This document shows, in pieces, positions 5,251-41,846 of a stretch of 43,320 nt of DNA. The first letter of the stretch is position 1, and the number at the start of each line of letters is the position of its first letter. Source of the stretch: Rhodopirellula sp. GTDB lineage: Bacteria; Planctomycetota; Planctomycetia; Pirellulales; Pirellulaceae. The stretch covers positions 46,637-89,956 of the forward strand of contig NZHC01000106.1 of the NCBI GenBank assembly GCA_002689655.1. Reading direction: 5' to 3'. A model generated the notes under the pieces. The model worked only from the letters and a program-made list of their open reading frames with translations, did no database searches and had not been told where the DNA came from. The position numbers and the translations under genes were made by a program.

Positions 5251-5763
5251 GGATCGATTGTCCCAATTGCTTTGGTTTCTTAATAATGCACGAGGCGCGT
5301 GCGTTCACTCAGATGACCATTATCACAGACACGCAGAGAATGACGACCCCGCTCATCGAGAAACCTGAGAACGCTCGGCACTCAGGTTTTTCACGATCTG
5401 GCGTTCGTGATCGGATTTCGAGGCAGAGTCCTGTGAAGCCGCTGAAGGTTATCAGTGCATGATCAGGTTCCACTACGTTTCACTGACTTGAACGGTCTGA
5501 AGGCAGTGAGCCGGTAAGGTGGTCGCTGGTTCGCAACCGGTAGCGTCGGGTACTGGAGTGTTTGCAACATTCTCTGCAACAATGGCTCGTGCAGCGGAAA
5601 CGGCAGTATCGATTGATGCTCACTTGGGAGCAATTAACTTCCTTCAGCATGAGACGGGATAAAACAGGGCTGAACTGACTTGTTCGGATTCCACTGAAAC
5701 CTGTCTACTGCAACAAGTTCCAACACTGCGGCACGGGCGATCACCCTCAACTTGAAAATCGAT
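5251..5763. other. Intergenic region between divergent argH and the secreted unknown
   Basis: This gap of about 510 bases has no supported gene on either strand; the open frames crossing it lack protein-like composition. It must contain the argH promoter (minus) and the promoter of the gene starting at 5764 (plus), but I could not pick clear -35/-10 elements. The one distinct structure is the inverted repeat at 5361-5391, listed separately. Confidence 0.5.
5361..5391 (+). terminator. Terminator-like inverted repeat upstream of argH
   Basis: AAACCTGAG at 5361-5369 pairs perfectly with CTCAGGTTT at 5381-5389 across an 11-base loop, and a run of five T residues (5387-5391) closes the plus-strand side. 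This is the geometry of a rho-independent terminator reading in the plus direction, yet no plus-strand gene ends here. It may end a short unannotated RNA, or act as a structure in the argH 5' leader. The repeat is seen directly; the role is uncertain. Confidence 0.4.
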
Positions 5764-8512: not shown

Positions 8513-9262
8513 TCAATGCATTCCTGTTCTGTTGGCGATGGCGTTCGCAAGTAATGGATCTGGGCCAAGGTAAGCCGATGTCAGCCATTGTAGAGATGGG
8601 TACCTGCTTGCAGCTAACTTGGTTTGATCTAGGATCGCCTGATTTAATTTTCCTTCAAAGATCAAGTGCGGCTGGACCACCACCGTATCAAACCGACCAC
8701 TGACAGCTACCGACTCAAGCGTGTCTGGTAAGCGTGGTTCGGTCATAGCGTAAAACGTTGTGAACACTTCAGCCACAAATGATCTTCGGCTAATGATCTC
8801 GCTGAGAACCAGCATGTCGGCTTTGGCACAGGGATCGTGACTGCCACGACCCACCATGATGACAGCTGTACGTTCGGGGGAATCTTGGTTGGAAGCCAGT
8901 GCTGTATCTAATCGCTGGACCGCAAGATCGAGGATCGCTGCATGCCGAGATAGGGGACGCGATTGATCAAACGTGACGTGAGGGTTACGGGCTTGGCATT
9001 CCATCAAGATGTCGGGGATGTCCTGTTTGGCATGGCCAGCTGCAAACAACAACAAGGGTGCAACATGGATATGAGTCACTCCTTTGGACAACAGTTCATC
9101 CCATGCCTCTGGGATGGATGGACTTTGGAATTCCAGTAGGCCTGCCGTTACTGGCGCGGGGGCAACCAAGTCGCTCAAGTGTTTTTCAAGCTCAAAGAAT
9201 TGTCGAGTTCCATCCGCGTTTCGTGTTCCATGCCCTACCAGCAAGATACCGGCTTTATCCAT
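8513..9262 (-). CDS. cbiX: CbiX-type sirohydrochlorin cobaltochelatase, two-lobed
   Basis: This 249-residue protein has the length of long CbiX, formed by two CbiX half-domains. The N-terminal lobe begins VGHGTRN with metal-ligand His11 and continues with APLLLFAAGHAKQDIP, giving the second His at 77. The C-terminal lobe has VGRGSHDP near 137 and VVQPHLIFEGKLNQAI. That is the usual pattern in which only the first lobe keeps the full His pair. The enzyme inserts cobalt into sirohydrochlorin in anaerobic-type cobalamin synthesis; a ferrochelatase-like SirB role cannot be excluded by motif alone. It lies 51 bases downstream of an HMA-like gene on the same strand, suggesting an operon. A second cobalamin gene (CobL) is about 31 kb away. 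Confidence 0.88.
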   Translation of the reverse strand: MDKAGILLVGHGTRNADGTRQFFELEKHLSDLVAPAPVTAGLLEFQSPSIPEAWDELLSKGVTHIHVAPLLLFAAGHAKQDIPDILMECQARNPHVTFDQSRPLSRHAAILDLAVQRLDTALASNQDSPERTAVIMVGRGSHDPCAKADMLVLSEIISRRSFVAEVFTTFYAMTEPRLPDTLESVAVSGRFDTVVVQPHLIFEGKLNQAILDQTKLAASRYPSLQWLTSAYLGPDPLLANAIANRTGMH

Positions 9263-12963: not shown

Positions 12964-14796
12964 ATGTTGTCGAATCTGGTCTGGAAAAAACTCTCTTTTT
13001 GTTTGTTTGTAACTTTTGCAGGCCTCCTACTTCCATCCGATAAATGTCTGGCGGATGACGGCGTTAAACAACCGAATGTGGTTGTGATATTGACTGACGA
13101 TCAGGGTTGGGGGGACCTGAGCTTGCATGGAAATCCCAATCTTTCCACACCCAACATTGACGCAATGGCACGTGACGGTGCCGAGATTGATCGTTTCTAT
13201 GTTTGTGCCGTTTGTTCGCCAACCAGAGCTGAGTTTCTTACAGGCAGATACCACAACCGATTGGGTGTTTACAGCACATCGGCTGGTGGCGAACGATTCA
13301 ATTCTGACGAGCAGACGATAGCCGAGGTGTTTCGTGAGGGTGGTTATGCGACCGGCTGTTACGGGAAGTGGCACAGTGGAATGCAGTACCCCTACCATCC
13401 CAATGCCCGGGGTTTTGATGACTATTACGGTTTTTGCAGTGGGCACTGGGGCAACTATTTCTCACCCATGCTGGAACATAATGGTCGTCTTGTGAAAGGT
13501 GATGGTTTCATCATTGATGATTTGACCAATCGCACGATCCAGTTTATCGATTCGCATCACGACCAGCCCTTCTTTGTTTACCTCGCTCTGAATACGCCGC
13601 ACTCACCCATGCAGGTACCAGACCAGTATTGGCAAAAATTTGCTGACAAGGACATTGTGTCCGATCCCGAAGCGGCCAATGCAAAGAAAGAAAACTTGGA
13701 ACATACACGTGCTGCTTTGGCGATGTGTGAAAACATCGATGCCAATGTGGGAAGATTAATTCACCATCTTGATAGGATTGGAGTCGGTGAAGATACCATT
13801 GTGATTTACTTTTCGGACAATGGTCCCAACGGGTCACGTTTTAACGCTGGAATGCGGGGGCGTAAGGGTTCTACAAATGAAGGTGGATTGCGGTCGCCTT
13901 GCCTGATTCGATACCCGCGCTGCATTGACCCAGGAACCAAGGTCAAACGGATTGCAGGCGCGATCGATTTATTACCGACCCTCGCAGACTTTGCAGGAAT
14001 CAAATTTGATGCCCCCAAGCCCCTTGATGGCAAATCCATCAAGCCTCTGTTGACGGGTGGTGCAGGTGCCTGGAAATCTCGCGTGATGTTCAGCACCTGG
14101 AACACAAAGGCAACCGTCCGTGATGACCGATATCGGCTGCAATCCAATGGGGGCCTCTATGACATCATCAACGATCCTCGCGAGAAGAGTGATTTGACGG
14201 AAGAAAAGCCACAGGTGGTGAAAAGACTTAAGAAAGAGCTGGCTGGCTGGCTGGCAGAAACTTCTCTGAAGTCCACTCGAGCTCCAGCAACACGACCCAT
14301 CACTTTGGCTCATCCAGACGCAGAATACACCCAATTGCCTTCACGTGATGCTCGCGCTCATGGTGGCGTGCGACGTAGCAATCGTTTTCCAAACTGCACT
14401 TTCATGACAAATTGGAAAACGCCGGAGGATTCGATCACCTGGGACGTGCAGGTTTTGGATCGTGGGGCTTATGAGGTTCAGATGTACTATGCCTGCAAGC
14501 AAGACGATGTCGGGTCGGAACTTGAGCTTACCATTGGTGATGAAAAAATTGGAAAAAGGATTGAAGTTGCGAATGAAGTCCCTTTGATCGGAGCTGCTGA
14601 GGACCGTTTTAAACGCGTTGAGGGTTATGTGCGTGATTGGCGACCCATGACGCTTGGCGTCGTACAACTTGTTCCTGGTAAGACGACGCTGACGTTGCGA
14701 GCTCGGAAGGTCGCAGGGGAAGAGGTCGCTGACATGCGTCTGCTGCTGTTTCGACGTCTTGGCGCGTCTGAAAACCGTGGTACTTCTGAAAAGTAG
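12964..14796 (+). CDS. Secreted arylsulfatase (family S1) with C-terminal beta module
   Basis: This 610-residue protein has a signal peptide (LSFCLFVTFAGLLLPSDKCLA, about 10-30). The alkaline-phosphatase-superfamily sulfatase domain follows, with metal-binding Asp-Asp at 45-46 in ILTDDQGWGD. The formylglycine motif is CSPTR at 84-88, where Cys84 is converted to formylglycine, followed by FLTGR. GYATGCYGKWH and YFSDNGPNG supply further active-site residues. After about residue 440 an added domain of about 150 residues (CTFMTNWKTPEDSITWDV onward, through LELTIGDEKIGKRIEV) resembles a jelly-roll carbohydrate-binding module; this is inferred. It probably desulfates algal or other sulfated polysaccharides outside the cytoplasm. 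No formylglycine-generating enzyme is encoded in the window. ATG 12964 is directly upstream of the leader. Confidence 0.94.
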   Translation: MLSNLVWKKLSFCLFVTFAGLLLPSDKCLADDGVKQPNVVVILTDDQGWGDLSLHGNPNLSTPNIDAMARDGAEIDRFYVCAVCSPTRAEFLTGRYHNRLGVYSTSAGGERFNSDEQTIAEVFREGGYATGCYGKWHSGMQYPYHPNARGFDDYYGFCSGHWGNYFSPMLEHNGRLVKGDGFIIDDLTNRTIQFIDSHHDQPFFVYLALNTPHSPMQVPDQYWQKFADKDIVSDPEAANAKKENLEHTRAALAMCENIDANVGRLIHHLDRIGVGEDTIVIYFSDNGPNGSRFNAGMRGRKGSTNEGGLRSPCLIRYPRCIDPGTKVKRIAGAIDLLPTLADFAGIKFDAPKPLDGKSIKPLLTGGAGAWKSRVMFSTWNTKATVRDDRYRLQSNGGLYDIINDPREKSDLTEEKPQVVKRLKKELAGWLAETSLKSTRAPATRPITLAHPDAEYTQLPSRDARAHGGVRRSNRFPNCTFMTNWKTPEDSITWDVQVLDRGAYEVQMYYACKQDDVGSELELTIGDEKIGKRIEVANEVPLIGAAEDRFKRVEGYVRDWRPMTLGVVQLVPGKTTLTLRARKVAGEEVADMRLLLFRRLGASENRGTSEK

Positions 14797-17523: not shown

Positions 17524-19137
17524 TCAGCTAGCGCCGGGTCCACCCGGAGCTCCAGGTGAAGGCGGTCGACCGTTGCTACCACCGGGGCCGCCAGGTGCTC
17601 CGGGAGAGGGAGGGCGGCGACTGTTGCTACCGCCGGCACCGGGACCCCCGGGTGCTCCAGGTGACGGAGGTCGTCCATTGCTACCTCCAGCTCCCGATCC
17701 ACCAGGTGCTCCGGGAGAGGGAGGGCGTCCGTTGCTACCGCCATATCCGCCCCCGGGTGCTCCCGGAAATGCGGCGGGTCCACCGCTCCCATAACCACCC
17801 GACATGTCATCACCCATGTCATCACCCATATCATCACCCATATCATCACCGTACCCTTCGTTGTATCCACCGAAGCCGCCGTTACCACGACCGTTGCTTT
17901 GGTTCGAGGCGACGACTGGAGCTTTGCCGAGAGCGGTCGCGAGAGTGATTAGGGCCGTTTGAATGGTGGGGGAAAATAAACCATCCATTGCCGCATGGAA
18001 TTGGTCAGAGGATTGTGAATTTGCCAGCGGGCTAAGGGCTGGGTTGAAGGCTCCGACCACCGCGCCCAGGGAATCGATCATTCCGGTGGTGCCCGTGATA
18101 TCGCCTTTGATTGACTCAATGTTTGCGGTCCAATCGTCCGCAATCGTTTTTGGAACCCAATAACCATCAATGGAAACAAGTTGGATTTCTCGCGTGCCAC
18201 CATCCTGTTCTACGTTAATGATCGCGACTTCGTCTTTTTCTGACTTGACGGTGATCTGTCGACCGATGCTCAAACCAATTCGGTCAACCAATTGAGCCAG
18301 GTAGGGAGCAATCACTTTGTCCCGTTCGGTTAGCCATTGACCGAAACTGACTGTTTGCAGCTGATCCAGACTTGTAGCTTCTGGTGAAAGTCCGACTCGC
18401 ATCAGATCAGCGAGAGGCAGAATCTGTTCTTCGACGGCATCGAAGTCTTTCGGAGGTAGAGCTTGAATGCGCGGGCTTGAGAGGAACCAGGTTTGATGAT
18501 TGATAACGACGTCACCGAATCTTTGGGCAGTTCCAACCAAACCTTGCCATGAAGTTTGATTCAGCTGAGATGCTGTCAGCTTCACCACATCATCAACATC
18601 TTTCCGGTAGCCCGGTGGTAATGCATCGTAAACGGCTATCAGATGGCCATCGGTGATTGCATCGTCGATTTGGTTAATGAAGTCGGCGACATTGGCATTG
18701 GCTTGTGGAGGTTGGTAGGCAGGTGCTGGAGCCGGAGTGGGAAGTGGCTGGGGGGCAGCTGCGGAAGCGGCGGCTGCGTTTCCCTGCAACTCGGCGACGC
18801 GATCGGCGCGGGACACTTTCAGTTGACGTGCCAGCTTTTGCGCTTGAATACGACTTTCGCTGCGTAGATCCTCCATTTTGACAGCAACGCGTTTGCCCCC
18901 TGTCAGCTCTAGGACGACAGCGTCACCCCACAATCCGATCATTCGAGCTTCGACCGTGCGAGTGCCCTGAAGGTCGGTCCAGAGTTCCGCTTCTGCATCG
19001 CACATGCCGATCGCTGAGAAAGCAGCGACCATGGCAAACCGCGATGCTGTTGCGATGCTCCCACGCCATCGATGCTGAAGAAAGCGCCATTGATGCTGAA
19101 GGAAGGAGTTGCGGTTGCAGCCTTTCGATGTATCCAT
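17524..19137 (-). CDS. Secreted SHD1-domain protein with acidic and collagen-like C-terminal repeats
   Basis: The frame can open as far up as TTG 19251 (575 residues, numbering used here). I prefer ATG 19137 (Met39), which has AAGG 11-14 bases upstream and a leader after a basic n-region. The hydrophobic core is FAMVAAFSAIGMC with likely cleavage after AEA (about 88). An SHD1 domain spans about 89-145 (LWTDLQGTRTVEARMIGLWG). An Ala/Pro linker (150-180) leads to a middle domain of about 260 residues that I do not recognise. The tail has four GDDM-type tetrapeptides and four 18-residue units containing PPSPGAPGG, collagen-like Gly-x-y sequence. It is probably exported and could be a matrix or envelope protein. 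Confidence 0.8.
   Translation of the reverse strand: MDTSKGCNRNSFLQHQWRFLQHRWRGSIATASRFAMVAAFSAIGMCDAEAELWTDLQGTRTVEARMIGLWGDAVVLELTGGKRVAVKMEDLRSESRIQAQKLARQLKVSRADRVAELQGNAAAASAAAPQPLPTPAPAPAYQPPQANANVADFINQIDDAITDGHLIAVYDALPPGYRKDVDDVVKLTASQLNQTSWQGLVGTAQRFGDVVINHQTWFLSSPRIQALPPKDFDAVEEQILPLADLMRVGLSPEATSLDQLQTVSFGQWLTERDKVIAPYLAQLVDRIGLSIGRQITVKSEKDEVAIINVEQDGGTREIQLVSIDGYWVPKTIADDWTANIESIKGDITGTTGMIDSLGAVVGAFNPALSPLANSQSSDQFHAAMDGLFSPTIQTALITLATALGKAPVVASNQSNGRGNGGFGGYNEGYGDDMGDDMGDDMGDDMSGGYGSGGPAAFPGAPGGGYGGSNGRPPSPGAPGGSGAGGSNGRPPSPGAPGGPGAGGSNSRRPPSPGAPGGPGGSNGRPPSPGAPGGPGAS
17527..17760 (-). repeat. 54-base tandem repeat encoding collagen-like PPSPGAPGG units
   Basis: Four diverged copies of a unit of about 54 bases encode 18-residue blocks of the form GGSNGRPPSPGAPGG plus a Gly/Pro/Ser/Ala tail. 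Copies differ mostly at synonymous or Gly-rich sites, and one carries an extra Arg (SRRPPSP). The array lies at the extreme 3' end of the SHD1 gene, and all units keep the reading frame. Confidence 0.85.
17803..17850 (-). repeat. 12-base tandem repeat encoding GDDM
   Basis: Four contiguous 12-base units (catgtcatcacc twice, then catatcatcacc twice, plus-strand reading) encode GDDM-GDDM-GDDM-GDDM in the SHD1 gene. The single base difference between the two types is synonymous. The resulting acidic, Met-rich patch could bind metal; that is speculation. Confidence 0.9.
19064..19105 (-). repeat. 21-base duplication in the leader of the SHD1 gene
   Basis: Two adjacent 21-base units (starting cgccatcgatgctgaag and cgccattgatgctgaag) encode FLQHRWR and FLQHQWR in the basic region preceding the hydrophobic core of the signal peptide. 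The duplication lengthens the n-region by seven residues. Confidence 0.75.
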
Positions 19138-19357
19138 CGCTATTTGTGCCTTAAAATCGTCGAGAATGCCCATTTCGGCAGTGGGGCGGAGTTGATTGCG
19201 GTTCATCCGCATGAGGACTTCCGAATCCATTATATTGAGATTGCGTTTCAAATGCGGCCCCGAAAACGGAGCTTATTTTGCGGAGTTTTGAGGTTTTCAG
19301 CCGTTTGTTACGCTTGGGAGGAAATGGATTCAGCGATCAATCCTGCGGAGAGCCACA

Positions 19358-20326: not shown

Positions 20327-20417
20327 AGATTGAAAACGGAGCCTATCGGAATTTTGGATTGCCGGTTAAAAAATGTGGGCAAGCAATCTTCAAAGTATTA
20401 CCAGCAGAGTCTCTCTC

Positions 20418-21701
20418 ATGGATCTCTCCAAAACCATCGCTCTGATCCTCGGTGGTGGCCGCGGAACACGTCTCTTTCCGCTGACGAAAATTCGGGCCAA
20501 GCCAGCCGTTCCGCTCGCTGCGAAATATAGACTGATCGATATCCCGATTAGTAATTGCATCAATAGTGGACTGAATCGGGCATATGTTCTCACTCAGTTC
20601 CTGTCAGAAAGTCTGCATCGACATCTGCGACAAACTTACACGTTTGATCATTTCAACGGCGGTTTTGTTGAGCTGCTCGCTGCTCAACAAACCGTCAATC
20701 AGGGAACTGATTGGTACCAGGGCACTGCTGATGCAGTGCGAAAGAACTTGGTACATCTCGAAGAAGACTGGATTGAGCATGTTCTGATTCTCTCAGGTGA
20801 TCAACTTTACCGTATGGATTTTCGCGAGATGATGCAAACGCACATCGAATCGGGAGCTGACGCTACCATTGCGGGAATTCCTGTTTCTCGTAAAGACGCA
20901 TCGGCACTTGGTATCATGCAAGTTGACGATAGTGGTCAAGTTCGCGGTTTTGTTGAAAAACCGCAGACTGAGGAGGAAATCGAGAGCGTCCGCATGGAGC
21001 CCAGTTGGATCGACGCCCATGGTATTCCCAGCCGAGGTCGCGATTGTCTGGCGAGTATGGGACTCTATATCTTCAACAAAGCAACCATGGTCGATCTGCT
21101 TAACAGCAATGAGCATCAAGATTTCGGTAAGGAAGTTTTCCCCGAGGCTATCAAGTCCCACAAAGTCCAAGTACATCTTTTTGACGGGTATTGGGAAGAC
21201 ATCGGAACGATTCGTGCCTTCTATGAAGCGAATCTGAATTTGGCAGGCAATGCGCCACCTTTTGATATACGTACACCCGACGCCCCTATCTACAGTCGCC
21301 CCAGGTTTTTACCGCCAACCATCATGGGTGATACGAAAATCACCGGCAGTTTAATTGCTGACGGTTGCCGTATCGGTCACAACGTTACCATCTCAAATAG
21401 CGTGATCGGATTACGAACAGTCGTTGGAGACAATGTTGTTATCAAAGACAGTGTCGTGATGGGGGCCGATTTTATGGACGACCCGACAAAATTAGCCGAC
21501 GGTACACTGCCAGTTGGAATCGGGTCAGGATCTACGATCTCGGGTACGATTCTCGACAAAAATTGTCGAATTGGTTCCAACGTGCAAATCCTTAATAAGT
21601 CAGGTGTTGAAAACCAGGGTGAAGACGATGTGCTGCAGGTTCGCGATGGAATCCCAATCGTCATCAAAAATGGCCAAATCGAAGACGGATTCACCTTTTG
21701 A
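20418..21701 (+). CDS. glgC: Glucose-1-phosphate adenylyltransferase
   Basis: From ATG 20418 this is 427 residues. An in-frame ATG at 20373 would add 15 residues ahead of the family's usual N-terminus, so I prefer the later start. The nucleotide-binding loop ALILGGGRGTRLFPLTKIRAKPAVP is followed by DIPISNCINSG and the adenylyl-site segment GTADAVRKN. GDQLYRMDF carries the metal-binding Asp, and VRGFVEKP and YWEDIGTIRAFY complete the catalytic domain. A left-handed beta-helix domain rich in hexapeptides (ITGSLIADGCRIGHNVTISNS) closes the protein. It makes ADP-glucose for glycogen synthesis and is expected to be allosterically regulated. No other glycogen gene is adjacent. Confidence 0.96.
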   Translation: MDLSKTIALILGGGRGTRLFPLTKIRAKPAVPLAAKYRLIDIPISNCINSGLNRAYVLTQFLSESLHRHLRQTYTFDHFNGGFVELLAAQQTVNQGTDWYQGTADAVRKNLVHLEEDWIEHVLILSGDQLYRMDFREMMQTHIESGADATIAGIPVSRKDASALGIMQVDDSGQVRGFVEKPQTEEEIESVRMEPSWIDAHGIPSRGRDCLASMGLYIFNKATMVDLLNSNEHQDFGKEVFPEAIKSHKVQVHLFDGYWEDIGTIRAFYEANLNLAGNAPPFDIRTPDAPIYSRPRFLPPTIMGDTKITGSLIADGCRIGHNVTISNSVIGLRTVVGDNVVIKDSVVMGADFMDDPTKLADGTLPVGIGSGSTISGTILDKNCRIGSNVQILNKSGVENQGEDDVLQVRDGIPIVIKNGQIEDGFTF

Positions 21702-32788: not shown

Positions 32789-34474
32789 TCACTTGGGCTT
32801 TTTTTGCTTTCTTTGGCTGCCATTTCGCTGGAAGGAATCAGTGAAGGGTGGAAACTCAAAAATCACTTTTTCCCGAATTCGTGGATCACCTGTCTGTTTC
32901 AGTTCACTAGTCAAACGCTGGTGAAGGCCTTCCCGAATGTGTTGAGCCGATTCCAAGCCAGCAAGGTTGTTGATGCAATCGGGATCGTTTTTGATGTCAT
33001 AAAGTTCAAATTCTGGGGCTCGGCCAATGGCATACTCAAAGAATTCAGGAGATTCTTCTCGATGCGCGATGATCCATGCTTTGGTCGGACTCGCGTCCAG
33101 ATCACCAAATGCAGAGAAGGTGTTTTCTCGTAGTGTTTCGTAGTCTGGCATCGTCGATTCGTCTGCACCGAATCCGGGACCGGTACCCATCGGCCAACGG
33201 TCGGGTTCAAAATTGATGATGTAAAGATAGCGATCCGTTCGAATTGCTCGCTGGGGATATGGTTTGTTGCCTGTGCGAGCGTGTGCCACATGTCGTTCTC
33301 GACCTGTGAAAACAGAATCTCGGCTTGGATCGATGAGTCCGGACGCAGCACTTCTGAAGATCGGAGAAAGTGACTTCGCGGTCATGTTTGCAGGAATGTT
33401 CACACCCGCAGCTTCTAAGAAGGTTGGAGCCAAGTCCGGCAAGCTGACGAAGTCATCGACCACTCGACCTTTGGATGCGATGCCCTTGGGCCAACGAATC
33501 GCCATTGGCACTTGGGTACCTTGGTCGTAGAGGCTACATTTTCCACGTGTGATACCAGGAATGCCGTGGTCACCGCTGACAACAAGAATGGTGTTTTCGA
33601 ACGCATTGATCCGCTTCAGTTCTTCAATTAGAACTCCAAGGCCTGCATCAAACGCTTGCGCCTCGCCAAGATAGTCTGCAAAATCTTCTCGGACGACTGG
33701 AACATCTGGCAAGAAGGATGGCAACTTTCCTTTCAGTAAGTCAGGATCGATACCCCACAATTCTTTCCCGCTACCGGCGATCCATTTGCGATGACAGTTG
33801 GTCGGACCGAACCAATAGCAAAATGGTTGATCATTATCAGCCTCGCCATCATTGTCAGCGTCGAGAAACGATCGGACATTTTTACGGACTTCTTCGAGCA
33901 AAAGCTGTTTTCCAGCATCGCGGTTCGGATTTTTCATCGCAGATTGCGAGAATTGATTGAATTTGGATCCGTGACGATTGTGGGCTCTTGGTTTTCCACC
34001 GTGAGGAGCATTTGCAGGGGAACCCGGGCTCCATACTTTATACGTATGGCCGATGCGGTACCCGGCATCTTCCAGCAACAACGGGTATGCAGGGATCGTC
34101 ATGTCCCAAATGGCGCCCTGCAGAATCGATGCACGGTTGCATCGCCAGAAATGCTGACCTGAAAGCAATGAGCTTCGGCATGGTGTGCAGGATGGAGCGC
34201 TGACAAATGCTCGCGTGAACAGAATCCCATCTCCCGCTACGGCGTCAAAGTTGGGAGTTGAAACATGGTCATTAATTCCACCAGGTGCCAAGTTTCCATA
34301 GGCACTTGCGTACTTTCCCCAGTCATCAGCAAACGCCATCACGATATTTGGTCTTTCAGCTGCCAGCACTGCTCCCGGCCCGATAGCTGTGGTTAGAGTT
34401 AGCAACAATGCAGCTAAAAAAGGGCTCTGAATAAATTTGTTGATTGACTGGATTTGCTTCATTGATTCATGCAC
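32789..34474 (-). CDS. Secreted sulfatase, heparan N-sulfatase (SGSH)-like
   Basis: This 561-residue protein has a leader with hydrophobic core FLAALLLTLTTAIGPGAVLA and cleavage near AAE (about 39). Metal-binding Asp-Asp is at 50-51 (MAFADDWGKYASAYG). The formylglycine motif is CTPCR at 96-100, followed by SSLLSGQ, the form seen in N-sulfoglucosamine sulfohydrolase-like (SGSH) sulfatases. VVSGDHGIPG supplies later active-site residues. It probably acts on N- or O-sulfated amino sugars outside the cytoplasm; the exact linkage is inferred. The C-terminus is basic (RKQKKPK). It is unlinked to the other sulfatase at 12964, and no sulfatase-maturing enzyme is nearby. ATG 34474 begins with a second ATG 12 bases later. 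Confidence 0.93.
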   Translation of the reverse strand: MHESMKQIQSINKFIQSPFLAALLLTLTTAIGPGAVLAAERPNIVMAFADDWGKYASAYGNLAPGGINDHVSTPNFDAVAGDGILFTRAFVSAPSCTPCRSSLLSGQHFWRCNRASILQGAIWDMTIPAYPLLLEDAGYRIGHTYKVWSPGSPANAPHGGKPRAHNRHGSKFNQFSQSAMKNPNRDAGKQLLLEEVRKNVRSFLDADNDGEADNDQPFCYWFGPTNCHRKWIAGSGKELWGIDPDLLKGKLPSFLPDVPVVREDFADYLGEAQAFDAGLGVLIEELKRINAFENTILVVSGDHGIPGITRGKCSLYDQGTQVPMAIRWPKGIASKGRVVDDFVSLPDLAPTFLEAAGVNIPANMTAKSLSPIFRSAASGLIDPSRDSVFTGRERHVAHARTGNKPYPQRAIRTDRYLYIINFEPDRWPMGTGPGFGADESTMPDYETLRENTFSAFGDLDASPTKAWIIAHREESPEFFEYAIGRAPEFELYDIKNDPDCINNLAGLESAQHIREGLHQRLTSELKQTGDPRIREKVIFEFPPFTDSFQRNGSQRKQKKPK

Positions 34475-34739
34475 CTAAAAGTAGTGGACGCTGTCTGAAA
34501 CGATTTTAGTCGAATTCATCTCGTTAGTGTGCTGAACAAAGGCAGCATCTTTGGAGCAACCCTTGCACGCAATGAGCAGGAAGTGCTTGATTGTGATTTT
34601 CCCTTGCATTACGAATCAACATGCGGACTGAATCTTGCAGGGGCGTTGCCATGAAGATAGATCTGTGATGACAATGCAGGTGGTAATTCATGATTGCCAA
34701 GTCTGGCCCTGTGATTTGACGACCACGTCGAGAGATTTT

Positions 34740-35447
34740 ATGAACGATGAATCTGCTGATGAGACGAAAGCGAGTCCTGTTCCTCTTTCTGCTGCAGCCC
34801 GGCGAGTCTTGGGGGTTTTGGTTGAGAAAGCCAAGACAACTCCTGATAACTACCCTCTCACATTGTCTGGAATCGTGACTGGTAGCAACCAGAAATCGAA
34901 TCGTGATCCCAAGATGGATCTTGATGATGAAGATGCTTTGTTGGCGTTAGATGAATTGCGCAGGCTTGGTGCAGCGCGGGAGGTTCAGGGTTCAGGACGG
35001 GCGGTCAAATATCGGCATGCAGCCTACGATTGGCTGGATGTCGATAGCGCGGGTTCGGCCGTGATGACAGAGTTGTTGTTGAGAGGTCCTCAAACGTTGG
35101 GCGAATTGAGAACTCGCGCGTCTCGCATGCACCCATTCCCTGATCTGAATACGATGAAATCAGTGGTGAGTGGTTTGGCCGAAAAGGGATTGATGGAATC
35201 GCTCACTCCACCCGGTCGTGGCCAGGTTTTCTCGCATACCTTGTATCCGCCACAGGAACGTCAATTTTTGAATGCGAAACTTGAAAAGCAGAATGCAGTA
35301 AAAGGTTCGGTGGTTGCAACCGAAGCTAGCGATACAAATCGAACAGCGGTGGACCAACTTTTGGACCGATTAGCGACGGTGAATACCCGAATTGATACGC
35401 TGGAGCAGCGATTGGCTGATCTGGAGAATTCCAAATCGGCAGATTGA
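34740..35447 (+). CDS. YceH family (DUF480) protein
   Basis: An upstream frame reaches 34635, but ATG 34740 (235 residues) matches the family N-terminus, with GAGAG about ten bases upstream. The YceH pattern is clear: LSAAARRVLGVLVEKAKTTPDNYPLTL, then IVTGSNQKSNRDP and VKYRHAAYDWL. TELLLRGPQTLGELRTRASRM and VFSHTLYPPQ follow. These blocks are two winged-helix-like units. The C-terminal 40 residues form a coiled coil (LATVNTRIDTLEQRLADLE). Family function is unknown. It converges with the GHMP-UDPGP fusion gene, 21 bases away. Confidence 0.9.
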   Translation: MNDESADETKASPVPLSAAARRVLGVLVEKAKTTPDNYPLTLSGIVTGSNQKSNRDPKMDLDDEDALLALDELRRLGAAREVQGSGRAVKYRHAAYDWLDVDSAGSAVMTELLLRGPQTLGELRTRASRMHPFPDLNTMKSVVSGLAEKGLMESLTPPGRGQVFSHTLYPPQERQFLNAKLEKQNAVKGSVVATEASDTNRTAVDQLLDRLATVNTRIDTLEQRLADLENSKSAD

Positions 35448-35468
35448 TTTACTGTGGGCCGATTACAC

Positions 35469-38400
35469 TCACTTCCATTGACAAAGTGATTCGACATAGT
35501 CCGCGCTGCCATCACGTTTCCATGGATCAAGCTGTGCCTGCGTTTTTAGCTGTTGCCCACGCTCCAAGGGTGTCGCAAAGAAGGCGCAATCAATTTCTGG
35601 TAAGGCGGTCATGTCACCCCACAGTTTTTCGAATTGGGCGACGGGAAAGACGTCTTCTTGAGCGTATCCCCACCGCTTTTTGACATCTTTCAGGGTGATG
35701 TAGGTGGGAAGCCGTGAGGCCATCTGTCTAACTGCAGCGCTGACTCGTGTCTCGTCGTCCAGATCTTTTCGCCCGATGCCAAATGACGTAAGCAGTTGAT
35801 CGATACTGATCCACGTCGTCATCGAATTGTAGAAAGTCAAATTGAATTCCGTCTCATCATTGGGCATCGCTAGTCCTTCCAATAGTCTTGGACGACCATT
35901 CACGGACGCCAAGCCTCCACCACGATCATCAATGCGTCGTCCAATGACTTCAAAACTGAGTGTGTTTTTCTCCTTGATATGCACGCCAAGCAAGCCGGGA
36001 TCAACATTCGCACCCAAGGTGTCAATGTTGTGGAGCATCAGGTATTCGAGTTCGGGCTGATCGCTGAGCATTTGTTTCAGTACTCCATTGAGTAACATAT
36101 TGGGCACTTCGTACCAATGACCCACAGGGTGGATGCATTGGTGTGGAAGATTGTCAACGTAATCAGTTCCCTCACCCATCTGATTGGCCCAGCCCATCAA
36201 TGCTGCACGCGCGCTTTCTCTCATTTTCTGTTTTTGTTCATCCAGGATCTGCTGGGCTGTTTCTTCCCAGAGGAAACGAAGATCCCGGATCATGGGGATC
36301 ATCCGCATACCAATACTCCGGCCGGTAGAAACGTAGACTTGATTGTTGAGGCCGTGATTTTGGTGCGTCGTCAGATGCGTCCGAATGGCGTCATCGGTTA
36401 GGTAGCTGGTGGTAAAGACATGAGGGATCGAACCGTTACAATCGTTGCTCGTTTTGCGGTTTTTTGCCAGATGGACCTCAATGAAACTGCGGTGACGACC
36501 TGAGAAGCGGTTGAAGGGATGTAGTGCTTTGCATACTCCTGCACCTTCCGTCCAACGACTCCCCACTCCCGCAGCCAAGGTCACGACCCCCACCTTGCCC
36601 TGATGAATGGCCTGGCGACCAAGTTCCCTGAGTTGCACAGGAACGCCAGATCTTGTTTCGATGAAATCCTCTGGCTTTACATCTTCAATCGTCATGTTGT
36701 TGGAAAGACGATTTTGGGCGAGACCAATTCTTCCGCTTTGTAAATCACTTCGAATCGCGTCATGTTGCTGTTGGTCAAAACCACAGCCATTCAGTATCTG
36801 TTGTAAGTTCGCGGTTTGTGCAGCTGTCGTGGTGGCTTGCGGAAGAATACTGTTCAGCAGTGTTGCGTGTTTCTTATTGTCGTTGCCTCGGCATTGTTGT
36901 CCAAGGTGCTCCAATTCAATACGTTGGTCGGCGCTTAGTTCACGCATTGAGGCACGCAAGAGGCCAGGCAGTACAAGCGAATAGTATTGCTCCGGCATCC
37001 CTGCTGCGGGTTCCTCAATGAAAGTTGCTCTGGAACCGTCGTCATTGATCTTAAAGTCGTAGACAACAGGGTCCATCGCAAATGGTAGTGAGGTTTGCAG
37101 AAGCTGTTTAGTTTTGATCAGAGTACCGCCGAGCCAGTCTTGAGCTGCCTCTTTGATTTCAGGATCAAAAATGAATCCCATGCCTCCACCCGACATCCCG
37201 CCCAGCATCCAAAAACCCCAGAATTGATCACCATATTTTTCGCGGCATTGTGTGATCAATGAGTCGGTAAAGCGATTTGTGGCCCAAGGAATGATTGTTT
37301 GCAGAGGGCCCTCGAAATTACGGGTGGTAGCATTACCAATCCGCTGGAGATCACCCTCACCTAGAGCTTTCACAATTTCATCAAGAATTTTCATTGCATC
37401 GAAACGGCTCTCCCACTCCTTTTCATTGCGAAGCAGATAATGCTCTGTGACCATTTCCAGAATGGGACCGACATTTTGTGCCATTCCACCATGCACCAGC
37501 ACCAGCGAGTCCTGTATTTTCTGTCTCGTTTCATCCGAAATTTCACGTTCGGACATCACATGATGCGTTGGCATTAACCGGCCTTGGCTAATCCCAAATT
37601 CGGGATCACCCTCCTGAGCTTTTGCACCTTGGATGAGTTTGATTCCAGGCCAGACACCACCTGAATCCTGCCAGCCTCCACCGCTGCCGCCAATCCACTC
37701 GCCTAAGATCGCGCGTGCTGCCACAAGCCGTCGATCGCTCTCCTGCAATGTGCCAGTCAGGCTTGTCGTCTGATTGGTGGCCCGCATCATCAAAGAAATC
37801 AACGAGCCGAGGAGATTTGTTGAGACCGCCAGGCGAGAACCCTTGGGAATGTCATTGATCTTGCTGACCACCTCGATTCCCTTGCCGTCGCCCACGATAC
37901 GCGTTAATAGTCCCTTGAGTGAATGTCCACATCCTTCCAGTCCGGGAGGAACAATGCCGGAGGCAATGACAGCGGCTTTGAGGAGTCCCAGATAATCCTG
38001 AGCAAAGTCGAACATGCTGGCGATTGAATCAACCTCCACTGTGGCTCGCAAGTCCACGCTGGTCAGTCGTATCACCGGACGGTCAATCACTCTGAGGTAA
38101 GTCTCGATAGGAGGATTTGTGTTTGTATCACGCCCTCTTACCCCGAGGTCGACGGACGCGTTGAGCACGCGGGCACCTTCCGGGAAGTCCATTCCAAGAA
38201 AGAAAATGTCGCTCCACGCGCTGTGGGAAAAATCCATGCGGACGGCCGTGACTTCACGCAGGATTGGCATCGCACCAGTGGTCGGGTGCGGTTTAAGCAT
38301 CTCCGGTCGAATTCGTAGTGGCTGTTCAGCAGGATGGCCCAAGCGGAACATCCATTGGTTACCTTTGACTGTTCGGACACTTCGGCGAACCTGATCAGCA

Positions 38401-38783
38401 AGTGTTTGGAAAGCCAGTTGATGATATGCTTGTGCCAATGCACTCGCGACGCCATCGCAGGGACCTTGGTCTCGCTGCATCAGCAGAAAGGAATCAATCG
38501 CTTCAACAAAACGTCGCGCAAGTAGGTGCTCGTATCCTGCGTAGGGGATGTACCCAGCTTGTGTAGCTTTGAGTTGTTCGGGCAGATGGTAGCGATAGAT
38601 CGCGGACAAAAAGAAGAGAGCACGAACACGATGGTACAGGTTGTCTTGTTGTCGGCGAAAACGATCCAGCTCCTGGCAATAGTCAAGAAGTGTTTCAAGG
38701 TTGGCCCCGGAGCACACCGAGTCGAGTGAGCGGTTGCGAACTTCCTTCTCGTCGGAAAGAATAATCTCGATCAGAGGACTCAT
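35469..38783 (-). CDS. Fusion of GHMP sugar kinase (fucokinase-like) and UDPGP-type nucleotidyltransferase
   Basis: This 1104-residue protein has two catalytic-type regions. After a helical N-terminus (1-170), residues about 175-610 are a GHMP kinase. VRMDFSHSAWSD (181-192) matches the sugar-binding start, IPKGSRLAVSTNLLGS (312-327) is the phosphate loop, GGGWQDSGGVWPG (368-380) is the fucokinase-type signature, and GGMSGGGMGFIFDPE (528-542) is motif 3. The loop reads GSRLAVST instead of G-S-G-L-G-S-S. Residues about 700-1104 resemble UDPGP/AGX pyrophosphorylases, with LAAGVGSRWTEGAGVCKAL (736-754). The order, kinase then pyrophosphorylase, is the reverse of Bacteroides FKP. It probably converts a free sugar to sugar-1-phosphate and then to a nucleotide sugar. 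Start ATG 38783 overlaps the upstream stop by four bases. Confidence 0.88.
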   Translation of the reverse strand: MSPLIEIILSDEKEVRNRSLDSVCSGANLETLLDYCQELDRFRRQQDNLYHRVRALFFLSAIYRYHLPEQLKATQAGYIPYAGYEHLLARRFVEAIDSFLLMQRDQGPCDGVASALAQAYHQLAFQTLADQVRRSVRTVKGNQWMFRLGHPAEQPLRIRPEMLKPHPTTGAMPILREVTAVRMDFSHSAWSDIFFLGMDFPEGARVLNASVDLGVRGRDTNTNPPIETYLRVIDRPVIRLTSVDLRATVEVDSIASMFDFAQDYLGLLKAAVIASGIVPPGLEGCGHSLKGLLTRIVGDGKGIEVVSKINDIPKGSRLAVSTNLLGSLISLMMRATNQTTSLTGTLQESDRRLVAARAILGEWIGGSGGGWQDSGGVWPGIKLIQGAKAQEGDPEFGISQGRLMPTHHVMSEREISDETRQKIQDSLVLVHGGMAQNVGPILEMVTEHYLLRNEKEWESRFDAMKILDEIVKALGEGDLQRIGNATTRNFEGPLQTIIPWATNRFTDSLITQCREKYGDQFWGFWMLGGMSGGGMGFIFDPEIKEAAQDWLGGTLIKTKQLLQTSLPFAMDPVVYDFKINDDGSRATFIEEPAAGMPEQYYSLVLPGLLRASMRELSADQRIELEHLGQQCRGNDNKKHATLLNSILPQATTTAAQTANLQQILNGCGFDQQQHDAIRSDLQSGRIGLAQNRLSNNMTIEDVKPEDFIETRSGVPVQLRELGRQAIHQGKVGVVTLAAGVGSRWTEGAGVCKALHPFNRFSGRHRSFIEVHLAKNRKTSNDCNGSIPHVFTTSYLTDDAIRTHLTTHQNHGLNNQVYVSTGRSIGMRMIPMIRDLRFLWEETAQQILDEQKQKMRESARAALMGWANQMGEGTDYVDNLPHQCIHPVGHWYEVPNMLLNGVLKQMLSDQPELEYLMLHNIDTLGANVDPGLLGVHIKEKNTLSFEVIGRRIDDRGGGLASVNGRPRLLEGLAMPNDETEFNLTFYNSMTTWISIDQLLTSFGIGRKDLDDETRVSAAVRQMASRLPTYITLKDVKKRWGYAQEDVFPVAQFEKLWGDMTALPEIDCAFFATPLERGQQLKTQAQLDPWKRDGSADYVESLCQWK

Positions 38784-39637
38784 GTACTCGCACCGGCATC
38801 TGTTCGATTTGCTAACAGGTCGATCAGTTCAACGAGTATTTCATCCCGATCTTGACCACTTAGTCCAATGGCGAGTTGGGCCTTGAGCAGACCGTATCGA
38901 ACCCCGAGGTTATGTCGTGTTCCGTCCAAACGATAAGCCAAGTATTTGCCGCGGGTTAGAAGCATCGCGACCGCGTCAGAAAGTGTTGGCTTTACCACTG
39001 TCTGTGAATTTAATAATTGATCAATCAAATCCATGATTTCACCAGTGAAGACATGCATGCCAAAGAAGCCAAGATAATGTCCTGCCCGCAAGCCAGGGGT
39101 CACTAGTTCCTGCTCCGCATAGGTGGGGGTTGGTTTCTCAATGACTCGATCAACTTGATAAAGTCCGTCAGTTCTTGGAGTCGGTGAACCACTGACGATG
39201 CCAAAATAGGGGAGATTGTTTTCTCGAGTTGATTGAACTGCGGATACGGAACATTCGTGCTCGTTGGCCATTTGCACCAGTTGTTTTGCACACGGAATAC
39301 CTGTGTTACTCAGGTACAAATGGTCTCCCACCAAGTGTAGAAATGGCTGGCCATCAACAAATGATCTCGCACGGTGGACTGCGTCTGCATATCCGAGAGG
39401 CTCGGGTTGCTCGACGAAGTGCAGGTTGCCGATTTGTTTTCCAGCTGCTGCTTGGTAAGCCTCCATGTCGCCCGGTTGAATGATCACGCAAACTTCATCA
39501 ATGCCCGCAGCAACTGTCTCTTCGATAATGAGCTGCAACGCTGTTTTTTCCCGTCCATCCCTGTCCACCAATTGTTGGAGCGGGAGACGATTTTGATTTG
39601 GGGCAGCAGCGGTAATGACTGCTTTTTGTATCGGCAT
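38780..39637 (-). CDS. GalU-like nucleotidyltransferase with degenerate nucleotide loop
   Basis: This 285-residue protein has the overall pattern of GalU (UTP-glucose-1-phosphate uridylyltransferase). VEQPEPLGYADAVHRA, then LVGDHLYL with the metal Asp, RVIEKPTP and YLGFFGMHVF are conserved segments. The N-terminal loop that should read G-x-G-T-R-x2-P-x-T-K is AAAPNQNRLPLQQL (11-24), so Gly-Thr-Arg and the following Lys are absent. It may be a non-catalytic or altered subunit. Its stop and the next start overlap as ATGA, so it is translationally coupled to the kinase-pyrophosphorylase fusion and is the first gene of that pair. A GalU with normal activity is less likely. Confidence 0.82.
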   Translation of the reverse strand: MPIQKAVITAAAPNQNRLPLQQLVDRDGREKTALQLIIEETVAAGIDEVCVIIQPGDMEAYQAAAGKQIGNLHFVEQPEPLGYADAVHRARSFVDGQPFLHLVGDHLYLSNTGIPCAKQLVQMANEHECSVSAVQSTRENNLPYFGIVSGSPTPRTDGLYQVDRVIEKPTPTYAEQELVTPGLRAGHYLGFFGMHVFTGEIMDLIDQLLNSQTVVKPTLSDAVAMLLTRGKYLAYRLDGTRHNLGVRYGLLKAQLAIGLSGQDRDEILVELIDLLANRTDAGAST

Positions 39638-39839
39638 TGAGATCTGGCAACTTTGCGTAACGGTGTGTCAGTGAAGAGTCGTTGTCCGTTTCCCATGCTA
39701 CTTAGGGAGTTGGATAACAACAACTGAAACACATCGTACTTCCATCTGAAGAGGTAAAAATGCGTCACTTGGCTATTGTCATGCGATCAATTTCGAACGT
39801 GAACTGCGATTTAGCGCTTCGTCGGCCTTCGTGAAATGC

Positions 39840-41081
39840 TCAATGCCATTGGTGTCCCAAGACCAGAAAGGTCGGATTCAACGCGTCGAAACGCACTCGG
39901 TCCAATTGATACTGGCCTCGGGCAATGTTGATCATGCGAACATCGCTGCGCAGCCCTGCCTCGTCTATTTTTGTTTGTACGGCCACCAGATTATCAGGGC
40001 TGGACACATTCACGACGATGCTTCCCCCGAGCGTGAGTCGTGATAATGCAGCCTGAACAAGATCCGGAACCATGCGTCCACTTCCACCGATGAAAATTGC
40101 ATCAGGATCTGGTAGTTCGTCAAATGCTTCCGGCGCTTGGCCATGAATTGGAACAAGCCCAGGTACGTCGAACATCCTCGCGTTTTCTACCATCAGCCCG
40201 AAATCTTCTGCATCCATCTCGATCGCAAAAACCTTTCCTTGGGATGCAATTGCAGCAGCCTCGATCGCAAGTGAGCCGCTTCCTGCACCCACGTCCCAAA
40301 CAATGCTCTTGTCGGACAACGCGAGTTCAGATAACGCAATGCAGCGTACTTCGGATGGTGTCAGTAAACCCCGTTTGGGACGTGATTGCAGGAAGAGATC
40401 GTCAGGGTTTCCAAACAGACGTTTGCGTCGACTGCCACTGGGGGAATCCGCTGCACCTTGACGGCGGACCAAGATCATCACATTCATTTCGGAAAAGGAC
40501 TGTTCGCGAATCGAACGCAAATCGCCCTGTGTGACGACTTCATCAGGTGTGCCGAGATTCTCGCAGACATAGACAGTGAAATAATCGATCCTTCGATCCA
40601 ATAGAGCTTCGGCGATGACAGACGGTGGTATCACGTCGGTGGTGAATAGTCCTACTCGCTCCGCCGTACGAATGTTGTCGACGACTCTGTCGAGCGATTG
40701 AGTTGCCAAGTTGGTTAGGTAAGCGTCATCCCAACTCTCTTTCACGCGGGCAAATGCTAGCTGCATGCTGCTAACGTGAGGCACCACTTCGAAACGTTCT
40801 TTACCAAACGAATCGGTGAGGTATCGTGCGATCCCATAAAACAGCGGATCACCACCGGCGAGCATCACGGTGGCCCGCTTGGGGAGTTTGACAATGGTTT
40901 CTTTCAGTGATTCCAAACCACCCCCGATCTCAAACCGCTCAGCGTTCGTCTCGGGGATTTTTCGCAACAGGGGTGATGTTCCAAGCAAAACTTCTGCTTG
41001 TTCGATCAACTGTCTCGCATGTCCGGTTAGACCTTGGAACCCGTCATCCCCAATGCCGACGATGTGTATGCGTGATGTCAA
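39840..41081 (-). CDS. cobL: Precorrin-6Y C5,15-methyltransferase (CbiE-CbiT fusion, CobL)
   Basis: This 413-residue protein joins CbiE and CbiT. The N-terminal half (about 1-210) is the tetrapyrrole methylase CbiE: IHIVGIGDDGFQGLT, then VMLAGGDPLFYGIARYL. The C-terminal half (about 230-400) is a class I SAM methyltransferase/decarboxylase, CbiT, with VWDVGAGSGSLAIEAA and AIFIGGSGRMVPDLV. It methylates corrin carbons 5 and 15 and removes the acetate carboxylate in cobalamin synthesis, in the cytoplasm. With cbiX (8513-9262) it implies a cobalamin route, but the genes are scattered. It starts at ATG 41081. Confidence 0.95.
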   Translation of the reverse strand: MTSRIHIVGIGDDGFQGLTGHARQLIEQAEVLLGTSPLLRKIPETNAERFEIGGGLESLKETIVKLPKRATVMLAGGDPLFYGIARYLTDSFGKERFEVVPHVSSMQLAFARVKESWDDAYLTNLATQSLDRVVDNIRTAERVGLFTTDVIPPSVIAEALLDRRIDYFTVYVCENLGTPDEVVTQGDLRSIREQSFSEMNVMILVRRQGAADSPSGSRRKRLFGNPDDLFLQSRPKRGLLTPSEVRCIALSELALSDKSIVWDVGAGSGSLAIEAAAIASQGKVFAIEMDAEDFGLMVENARMFDVPGLVPIHGQAPEAFDELPDPDAIFIGGSGRMVPDLVQAALSRLTLGGSIVVNVSSPDNLVAVQTKIDEAGLRSDVRMINIARGQYQLDRVRFDALNPTFLVLGHQWH

Positions 41082-41213
41082 CGAAAATAGTCCTTCTTAA
41101 TGGGTTGCCAAATTGACTTTGCATCACAGTGCGACGCTTATCAGGCGTAGTTCAGTTTTGTATCAAGTGATCTGGATAACCAATAGACTGGTGCTGGCAA
41201 ACATCTCGCTGAT

Positions 41214-41846
41214 TCAGAGTTTTCTCAATTCGCGAAGGATTTCTTCTACGGTACTTCTTCCAGCAGACGAACCGCTAACTTTTTTCCATGCGACCCGTCC
41301 ATTTTGGTCAACGATAAATGTAGCGGGGTAGGCAGTCTGATTACGTGCTTGCCAACGTATTCCCCACTCCGTCACCATCTGCATATCGTCATCACGAACC
41401 AACCTGATGGGATGAGGTAATTTTCTTGATCCAATGAAACGTTTCGCATTTTTTTCTATTTGATCTGTCTTGTCAGGATAAACCAATACAACGCACTTGG
41501 TTTCCGAGGACAGGGCTTTGGCTCGATTGACAACCGCATTGAATTGACTCTTGCAAATCGGACATTGGTAGCCTGGGTAGCCTCGCAGCACAATCACCAC
41601 AACAGGTCCGTCATGATACTCGTCGCGAAGGCTAAGATAATTTTTCTCTCCGACCAGTGGTAGCTCGAAATCTGGTGCACGCTGTCCGATCGCAGTCTGA
41701 TTCTGTGGGACGCCTTGCCCCCGCAACGGGTTCGTAGTTGGTATCAAAGTGATTAGCAGTTGGCAGCAGCACACTCTTATCAGCAGCCTTGCCAAGGGCG
41801 GGAATGGTTGATCTCTTTGTGAGGAAGTTTGTTTTGGTGCAGTCAT
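41214..41846 (-). CDS. Peroxiredoxin/AhpC-TSA-like exported redox protein
   Basis: From ATG 41846 this is 210 residues; a TTG two codons upstream is also in frame. A long n-region is followed by a hydrophobic core (LLIRVCCCQLLITLIP), with a leader or anchor at about 20-40. The thioredoxin-like domain from about 53 contains QRAPDFELPLVG, and the active-site CPIC (95-98) in GYPGYQCPICKSQF. CVVLVYPD and YPATFIVDQNGRVAWKKV follow. The CxxC pair suggests thiol-dependent peroxide or disulfide reduction in the periplasm. It stands alone between the cobL and rhomboid genes. Its substrate is unknown. Confidence 0.87.
   Translation of the reverse strand: MTAPKQTSSQRDQPFPPLARLLIRVCCCQLLITLIPTTNPLRGQGVPQNQTAIGQRAPDFELPLVGEKNYLSLRDEYHDGPVVVIVLRGYPGYQCPICKSQFNAVVNRAKALSSETKCVVLVYPDKTDQIEKNAKRFIGSRKLPHPIRLVRDDDMQMVTEWGIRWQARNQTAYPATFIVDQNGRVAWKKVSGSSAGRSTVEEILRELRKL

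Follow-up and report, generated by a model that had tools for sequence, protein, structure and literature searches.

In a 43,320-nucleotide stretch of the Rhodopirellula sp. contig NZHC01000106.1 (hereafter the window), two overlapping minus-strand genes encode a protein with a GalU fold (the partner) and, immediately downstream of it, a single chain in which a fucokinase-type GHMP kinase domain is followed by a UGPase/AGX-type (UDPGP) pyrophosphorylase domain (the fusion; Table 1). We propose, with about even confidence, that the fusion would act as a two-step salvage enzyme, as suggested by its sequence, and that the partner may be its non-catalytic regulatory subunit, as suggested also by analogy with known systems. 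That the fusion would salvage a free sugar, converting it to a nucleotide sugar, can soundly be inferred from its conserved active-site residues; the shortened nucleotide loop of the partner and the co-occurrence and correlated divergence of the two genes carry the remainder of the proposal. Both open reading frames (ORFs) were found where the initial annotation of this DNA had placed them, with the predicted four-base overlap. Its suggestion of an undescribed system also stood, as no description of the family was found by title or beginning of abstract in the open-access literature on kinase-pyrophosphorylase proteins and their hosts, subscription-only papers lying outside this survey.

The combination of both domains in one chain, in an order opposite to that of the Bacteroides FKP, had likewise been claimed and was confirmed by profile and structure searches. 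The UDPGP profile of Pfam (PF01704) matched the fusion above its cut-off (E = 8.3e-12; 44.9 bits, cut-off 22), with the best match at residues 886-996, and the NCBIfam fucokinase/FKP model (NF009948) aligned with residues 180-537 (E = 2.9e-17; 61.7 bits, cut-off 721). Pfam backed the expected domains in part, since GHMP_kinases_C stayed under its cut-off (E = 0.13) and GHMP_kinases_N gave no match in the scan of the fusion protein. A profile search against solved structures identified UGPases and FKP as relatives. The AlphaFold model of the fusion (mean predicted local distance difference test score, pLDDT, 88.3) retrieved the FKP fucokinase, the heptokinase WcbL and UAP/AGX/UGPase in a Foldseek search, with a template modelling score of 0.82 (target-normalised) between the kinase domain and the C-terminal domain of FKP. 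Judged from its predicted fold and the catalytic residues in its sequence, the kinase domain fits the GHMP kinase superfamily. NF009948 scored 75.1 bits for the relative at locus L043 and 46.5 bits for that at L092, both below 721, and the window fusion, L043 and L092 all stayed below the cut-off of every NCBIfam model. The fusion represents a family of its own, to which no curated name has been given.

The kinase active site was examined in an alignment with eight FKPs taken from pair-bearing genomes. R182, W190, D192, E362, Q372 and D373 of the fusion were the equivalents of FKP R592, W599, D601, E751, Q761 and D762, whose tested or proposed roles, together with mutants of W599, D601, E751 and D762, are described in the FKP study (PMC11982464). 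None of the six residues varied in the 99 kinase rows, down to about 42-44% identity. The surrounding motifs differed: ten family rows carried HxxWSDIFFL, P(K/R)GSRLAVST and GGGWQDS, compared with AGGWTDTPP, PKGSGLGTSS and GGGWQDQ in the FKPs, and motif 3 read GGMSGGGMG or a near variant, compared with GAGGGGY, so that the family and the eight FKPs had the core residues alone in common. In a tree of 36 kinases, 18 family kinases grouped as a single clade (100/100), and a long branch set them apart from the eight FKPs and from ten short kinases that were called HddA-like by their GGG(S/T)D motif alone. Membership among the HddA/WcbL heptokinases was rejected, because the two groups fell into separate clades (each 100/100) and a Trp replaces the third Gly of GGG(S/T)D.

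The Bacteroides FKP (L-fucokinase/GDP-fucose pyrophosphorylase; PDB 5yys, 9iip, 9iit) resembles the fusion in its catalytic and most of its sugar-contact kinase residues and in carrying a kinase and a pyrophosphorylase on one chain. It differs in that the fusion has the reversed domain order, a UDPGP-type domain instead of the FKP N-terminal domain, alterations in all three GHMP motifs, an extra helical N-terminus and a separate GalU-like partner. It seems unlikely that the fusion is an FKP equivalent that converts L-fucose to GDP-L-fucose and has been re-invented with a UDPGP-type domain. Such a role would agree with FKP being the nearest relative of the kinase in sequence and fold, with the retained Trp/Asp sugar-contact pair, and with the absence of an FKP above the cut-off from 30 of 39 fusion-bearing genomes. 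However, an FKP above the NCBIfam cut-off was present in 9 of these 39 genomes (the same search gave matches in 5 of 14 control genomes, one of them above the cut-off), and therefore the fusion there is not simply FKP in another shape. Further, all three GHMP motifs depart from those of the eight FKPs, and the UDPGP fold is one associated with enzymes that use UTP.

Within the pyrophosphorylase domain, all 99 rows had R743, K752, G888 and H889, and all 98 rows covering the positions had D921 and E969. Where UDPGP enzymes have PPGHG, PxGHW was the usual sequence (96 of 99 rows had the W). The domain has the fold, the signature Lys and the metal Asp of the UGPase/AGX family (PF01704), from which it departs in being joined to a kinase, in its PxGHW motif and in a Gln at the expected second Lys, considered below.

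The partner matched NTP_transferase of Pfam above the cut-off (E = 3.3e-12) and scored 81.8 bits with GalU (TIGR01099; E = 5.8e-23), not reaching the cut-off of 326.8, and 21.2 bits with GalF (TIGR01105, titled 'GalU regulator GalF'; cut-off 659.2). The solved-structure profile search and a structure search with its AlphaFold model (mean pLDDT 92.6) both retrieved YngB/GalU-type enzymes, and the partner retains the GalU fold, the GD(H) metal Asp, and the EKP and GY(G/A) motifs. In GalU enzymes, the nucleotide loop reads AAGxGTRFLPxTKxxPKEMLP or close to it. In 84 of 86 partners, that of the window among them, this loop was shorter by eight residues than in the two others (L084 and L092), which kept a 28-residue loop with a Lys ahead of xxxP. 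Of the 84, 83 had no Lys at aligned positions 18-24, although a Lys occurred anywhere in residues 9-28 in 28 of the 84. Because of the short loop, the partner is probably no working GalU enzyme, and its likeness to the UTP-glucose-1-phosphate uridylyltransferases GalU and YngB held for the fold and the GD and EKP motifs and not for the GxGTR...PK loop, whose shortening the initial annotation had not noted. A tree of 21 proteins placed the 14 sampled short-loop partners in a single clade (98/97); L084 and L092 fell outside this clade and within the group of all partners (93/84), and the intact proteins lay beyond. The branch of L092 was long, and support for the outer order was weak. The simplest reading of these sequences would be a single loss of the loop, so that the partner would be a former nucleotidyltransferase whose signature loop was lost in the main clade. 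Loss of the second metal Asp in all partners was also considered and was rejected by count (see below).

The GalU-like relatives at loci L153-L156 had both GxGTR and the signature Lys. At L153, a planctomycete locus (L153:4880-9665, plus strand), an apparent operon encodes a ROK-type regulator (identified by eye), then a galactokinase-like GHMP kinase (four-base overlap), together with a phosphatase-like protein (weak NCBIfam match) and the GalU-like protein, which was the best-scoring partner relative found outside the pair. This arrangement hints that the partner descends from a sugar-activation setting.

To follow the family among bacteria, genome contigs were scanned, which gave at least 585 homologous stretches (at least 590 pattern matches). 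The best 80 of the at least 585, with 59-90% identity, were kept; 78 were near full length and two (L006 and L045) were partial. The recurrence of the fusion in several phyla at about 60% identity and near full length indicates that it is not a chance ORF. Besides the window, the 77 tree rows came from Planctomycetota (44), Verrucomicrobiota (19), Chloroflexota (9), Armatimonadota (2), Acidobacteriota (1) and Kiritimatiellota (1), with one row lacking a phylum; many records are bins, which are incomplete and whose labels may err, and partner absence depends on assembly quality. The spread was patchy. Strong fusion matches were found in 15 of 199 genomes of Planctomycetota, the phylum of the window, in 18 of 194 genomes of Verrucomicrobiota (the phylum of genome G199, source of L082, Chthoniobacter flavus) and in 3 of 201 genomes of the phylum of G203 (L073, titled Anaerolineae). 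The window's own genome has one fusion copy, and no second fucokinase-like match was found in it; the sole other match was weak (E = 2.2e-4), a 479-residue ORF that aligns as UDPGP-type. Among viral contigs, 39 stretches fitted the search patterns, with no relative among them. The single plasmid match, in Hymenobacter volaticus (L084:17005-21321), has its fusion gene in pieces with an internal stop; its partner gene is separate and open, keeps the Lys loop and was used in the alignments, the broken fusion being described only. A divergent member (L093:2152-6427, minus strand) has its kinase and UDPGP parts in two ORFs, and may be a split form or a frameshifted bin.

The pair was conserved to a large extent. 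Of 78 loci that offered 200 bases of space or more, 73 had the partner upstream of the fusion and on its strand; 61 of these 73 adjacent partners lay at most 75 bases from the fusion ORF, and four-base overlaps numbered 22, with ORF starts taken mechanically and two partners partial at contig ends. At the five loci without an adjacent partner despite room (L034, L039, L043, L067 and L079), each genome had a single fusion gene and, on a different contig, a strong partner match (E of 4.7e-132 or lower); the unlinked partner gene of G790 ended about 100 bases short of its contig end. In the 194 Verrucomicrobiota genomes, partner matches with E of 7.7e-99 or lower occurred in exactly the 18 fusion genomes, the next match being at 1.5e-41, and some match to the partner profile at 1e-15 was seen in 78. 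Among the 199 Planctomycetota genomes, a strong partner match was found in 10 of the 15 with a fusion. The conservation of the pair, for which the initial annotation had proposed a survey across Planctomycetota, was thus upheld as co-occurrence, while the pair spread beyond that phylum and was incomplete within it. In 84 loci with both genes, the distance correlation between kinase and partner (0.883) equalled that between the kinase and UDPGP domains (0.883) and was reached in none of 1000 permutations; both values include a contribution from the common descent of the host genomes. For the 48 loci most distant from the window, the two correlations were 0.903 and 0.906.

Taken together, these data suggest the following scheme. 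The GHMP kinase domain would transfer the gamma-phosphate of ATP to C1 of a free sugar with L-fucose-like ring hydroxyls, for which L-fucose, L-galactose, D-arabinose or related sugars are candidates. The UDPGP domain would then convert the sugar-1-phosphate and a nucleotide, most likely UTP as its fold suggests, to a nucleotide sugar and pyrophosphate. The partner, retained without the usual loop, fits a regulatory or product-sensing subunit, which would most likely bind the product, or a nucleotide sugar related to it, and tune the enzyme, much as GMPPA does for GMPPB. More tentatively, the product may be a nucleotide sugar so far undescribed in bacteria, such as a UDP-activated sugar of the L-galacto or D-arabino type, with the fusion gated by a catalytically dead GalU homologue that senses the level of nucleotide sugar. 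The helical N-terminal region of the fusion is, from the model, a possible interface with the partner.

Several findings weigh against the proposed salvage enzyme and regulatory subunit, the first of which concern the fusion itself. The position matching the second catalytic Lys of AGX and UGPase (K407 in AGX1) was Gln in all 98 covering rows, as located by a single hhalign profile alignment to one bacterial UDPGP-type ORF; the pyrophosphorylase chemistry could therefore be altered. In the kinase, the phosphate loop reads GSRLAVST rather than the GSGLGTSS of FKP, and FKP T602, which touches C3-OH, is replaced by Ile in all 99 rows. The neighbouring genes give no indication of the sugar or of what uses it. 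The altered loop, this Gln and the lack of pathway genes near the fusion would also suit a sensor, or an enzyme run in reverse to degrade nucleotide sugars, which we consider improbable in view of the invariance of D373, E362, the sugar-contact residues and K752/D921, for which a sensor would have no need.

Other observations concern the partner. Its first metal Asp (D105) was invariant, and the second metal position was Asp in 37 of 87 rows, Asn in 49 and Pro in one (the rows include one RmlA-type control); the short-loop partner of L021 did carry a Lys at aligned positions 18-24. It is conceivable, if rather improbable, that the partner is an active nucleotidyltransferase and that the kinase supplies two different pyrophosphorylases. 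The retained fold and motifs, the longer Lys loop of L084 and L092, the Lys of L021 and the apparent operon of a related GxGTR and Lys protein with a galactokinase-like kinase are compatible with activity, which is opposed by the eight-residue shortening in nearly all partners and the lack of the Lys in 83 of them. With respect to the pair, a strong partner match was missing from five of the 15 fusion-bearing Planctomycetota genomes (G035, G045, G150, G179 and G191), a partner relative in G111, which has no fusion, outscored the fusion-adjacent partner in G187 (E = 2.1e-62 and 6.1e-53, respectively), and shared host ancestry enters the distance correlations. Because of those five genomes, either the partner is not needed everywhere or the bins are incomplete; the lack of a strong partner match for some divergent members suits a modulator better than it suits an indispensable part of the active site, and incomplete bins could explain it too. 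That the pair is a chance arrangement of two genes with separate functions, as unlinked partners and these five genomes might suggest, is very hard to reconcile with the identical set of 18 Verrucomicrobiota genomes carrying both, the presence of the partner even when unlinked and the correlation of distances.

The regulatory role proposed for the partner has parallels among nucleotidyltransferases. Human and plant GMPPA is described as a non-catalytic protein that binds GDP-mannose and interacts with GMPPB (PMC11228364; PMC9168903). As in that pair, a nucleotidyltransferase homologue, probably non-catalytic by its sequence, is retained with a presumably active enzyme; unlike it, other families are involved, the partner is no close paralogue of the pyrophosphorylase domain that it would regulate, and the interaction is a putative one. 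GalF, a bacterial GalU homologue titled a regulator by NCBIfam, may by analogy be a bacterial precedent, although the partner goes with a kinase-UDPGP fusion and not with GalU. A zebrafish glucuronokinase/putative pyrophosphorylase is described as joining a GHMP kinase and a nucleotidyltransferase on one chain for UDP-sugar salvage; it differs from the fusion in that the pyrophosphorylase comes first and is of a bacterial nucleotidyltransferase type, and in that its kinase is related to plant glucuronokinase (PMC3938481). The at least 585 stretches encode a family that has no curated name and has motifs pointing to free-sugar activation; identifying the sugar would bring to light a glycan precursor that bacteria of several phyla use. 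As for the partner, it would show clearly how a bacterial nucleotidyltransferase can become a non-catalytic subunit that stays with its enzyme, with Lys-loop relatives surviving for comparison.

Table 1. Features of the fusion and partner genes in the window.
Feature	Positions	Strand	Evidence
Fusion protein gene, 1104 residues, ATG start	35469..38783	minus	ORF listing, profile and structure matches
GalU-fold partner gene, 285 residues, ATG start	38780..39637	minus	ORF listing, profile and structure matches
ATGA stop-start overlap of partner and fusion genes	38780..38783	minus	ORF coordinates; -4 spacing in 22/73 related loci
Fusion N-terminal region, residues 1-165, all-helical, family unassigned	38289..38783	minus	DSSP of model; no Pfam match
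Fucokinase-type GHMP kinase domain, residues 170-595	36999..38276	minus	Profiles, structure match, tree, FKP alignment
Altered GHMP phosphate loop PKGSRLAVST, residues 313-322	37818..37847	minus	Alignment; eight FKPs have PKGSGLGTSS
GGGWQD, residues 368-373, with D373 (equivalent to FKP general base D762)	37665..37682	minus	Alignment; roles from PMC11982464
Linker, residues 596-700, mostly helical, lowest confidence at about 640-660	36684..36998	minus	AlphaFold model
UGPase/AGX-type (UDPGP) pyrophosphorylase domain, residues 705-1104	35472..36671	minus	Pfam, profile, structure match
Nucleotide loop LAAGVGSRWTEGAGVCKALHP, residues 736-756, with R743 and signature K752	36516..36578	minus	Alignments
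Shortened loop, partner residues 9-28 (GalU enzymes: GxGTR...PK)	39554..39613	minus	Alignments, tree

The genes around the pair varied between loci. When the genes of 81 loci (L002 left out) were clustered, the fusion cluster was present in 77 and the partner cluster in 64, and the next gene family occurred in nine loci, all among the nearest relatives of the window. A Pfam scan of nearest-neighbour ORFs (122 of 157; ten loci, including near copies, fragments and the plasmid, were left out) gave 126 families, none in more than three members, and nothing recurrent was seen by eye in the unannotated listing of ORFs around unlinked partner genes. Neither protein matched the anti-phage defence models of PADLOC at E = 0.01, and no RNA family reached its gathering score within 34000-41500. 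Elsewhere in the window, two ORFs had no Pfam match at E = 1e-5 (5752-8490, plus strand, 912 residues; 17524-19251, minus strand, 575 residues). A GlgC-type nucleotidyltransferase (NTP_transferase with a GLGC beta-helix; 20373-21701, plus strand) lies about 14 kb from the pair, and two sulfatases are encoded at 32789-34474 (minus strand) and 12964-14796 (plus strand). A protein with TP_methylase and methyltransferase domains (39840-41081, minus strand) and a CbiX-type chelatase (8513-9262, minus strand) are the products of apparent cobalamin genes, about 30 kb apart.

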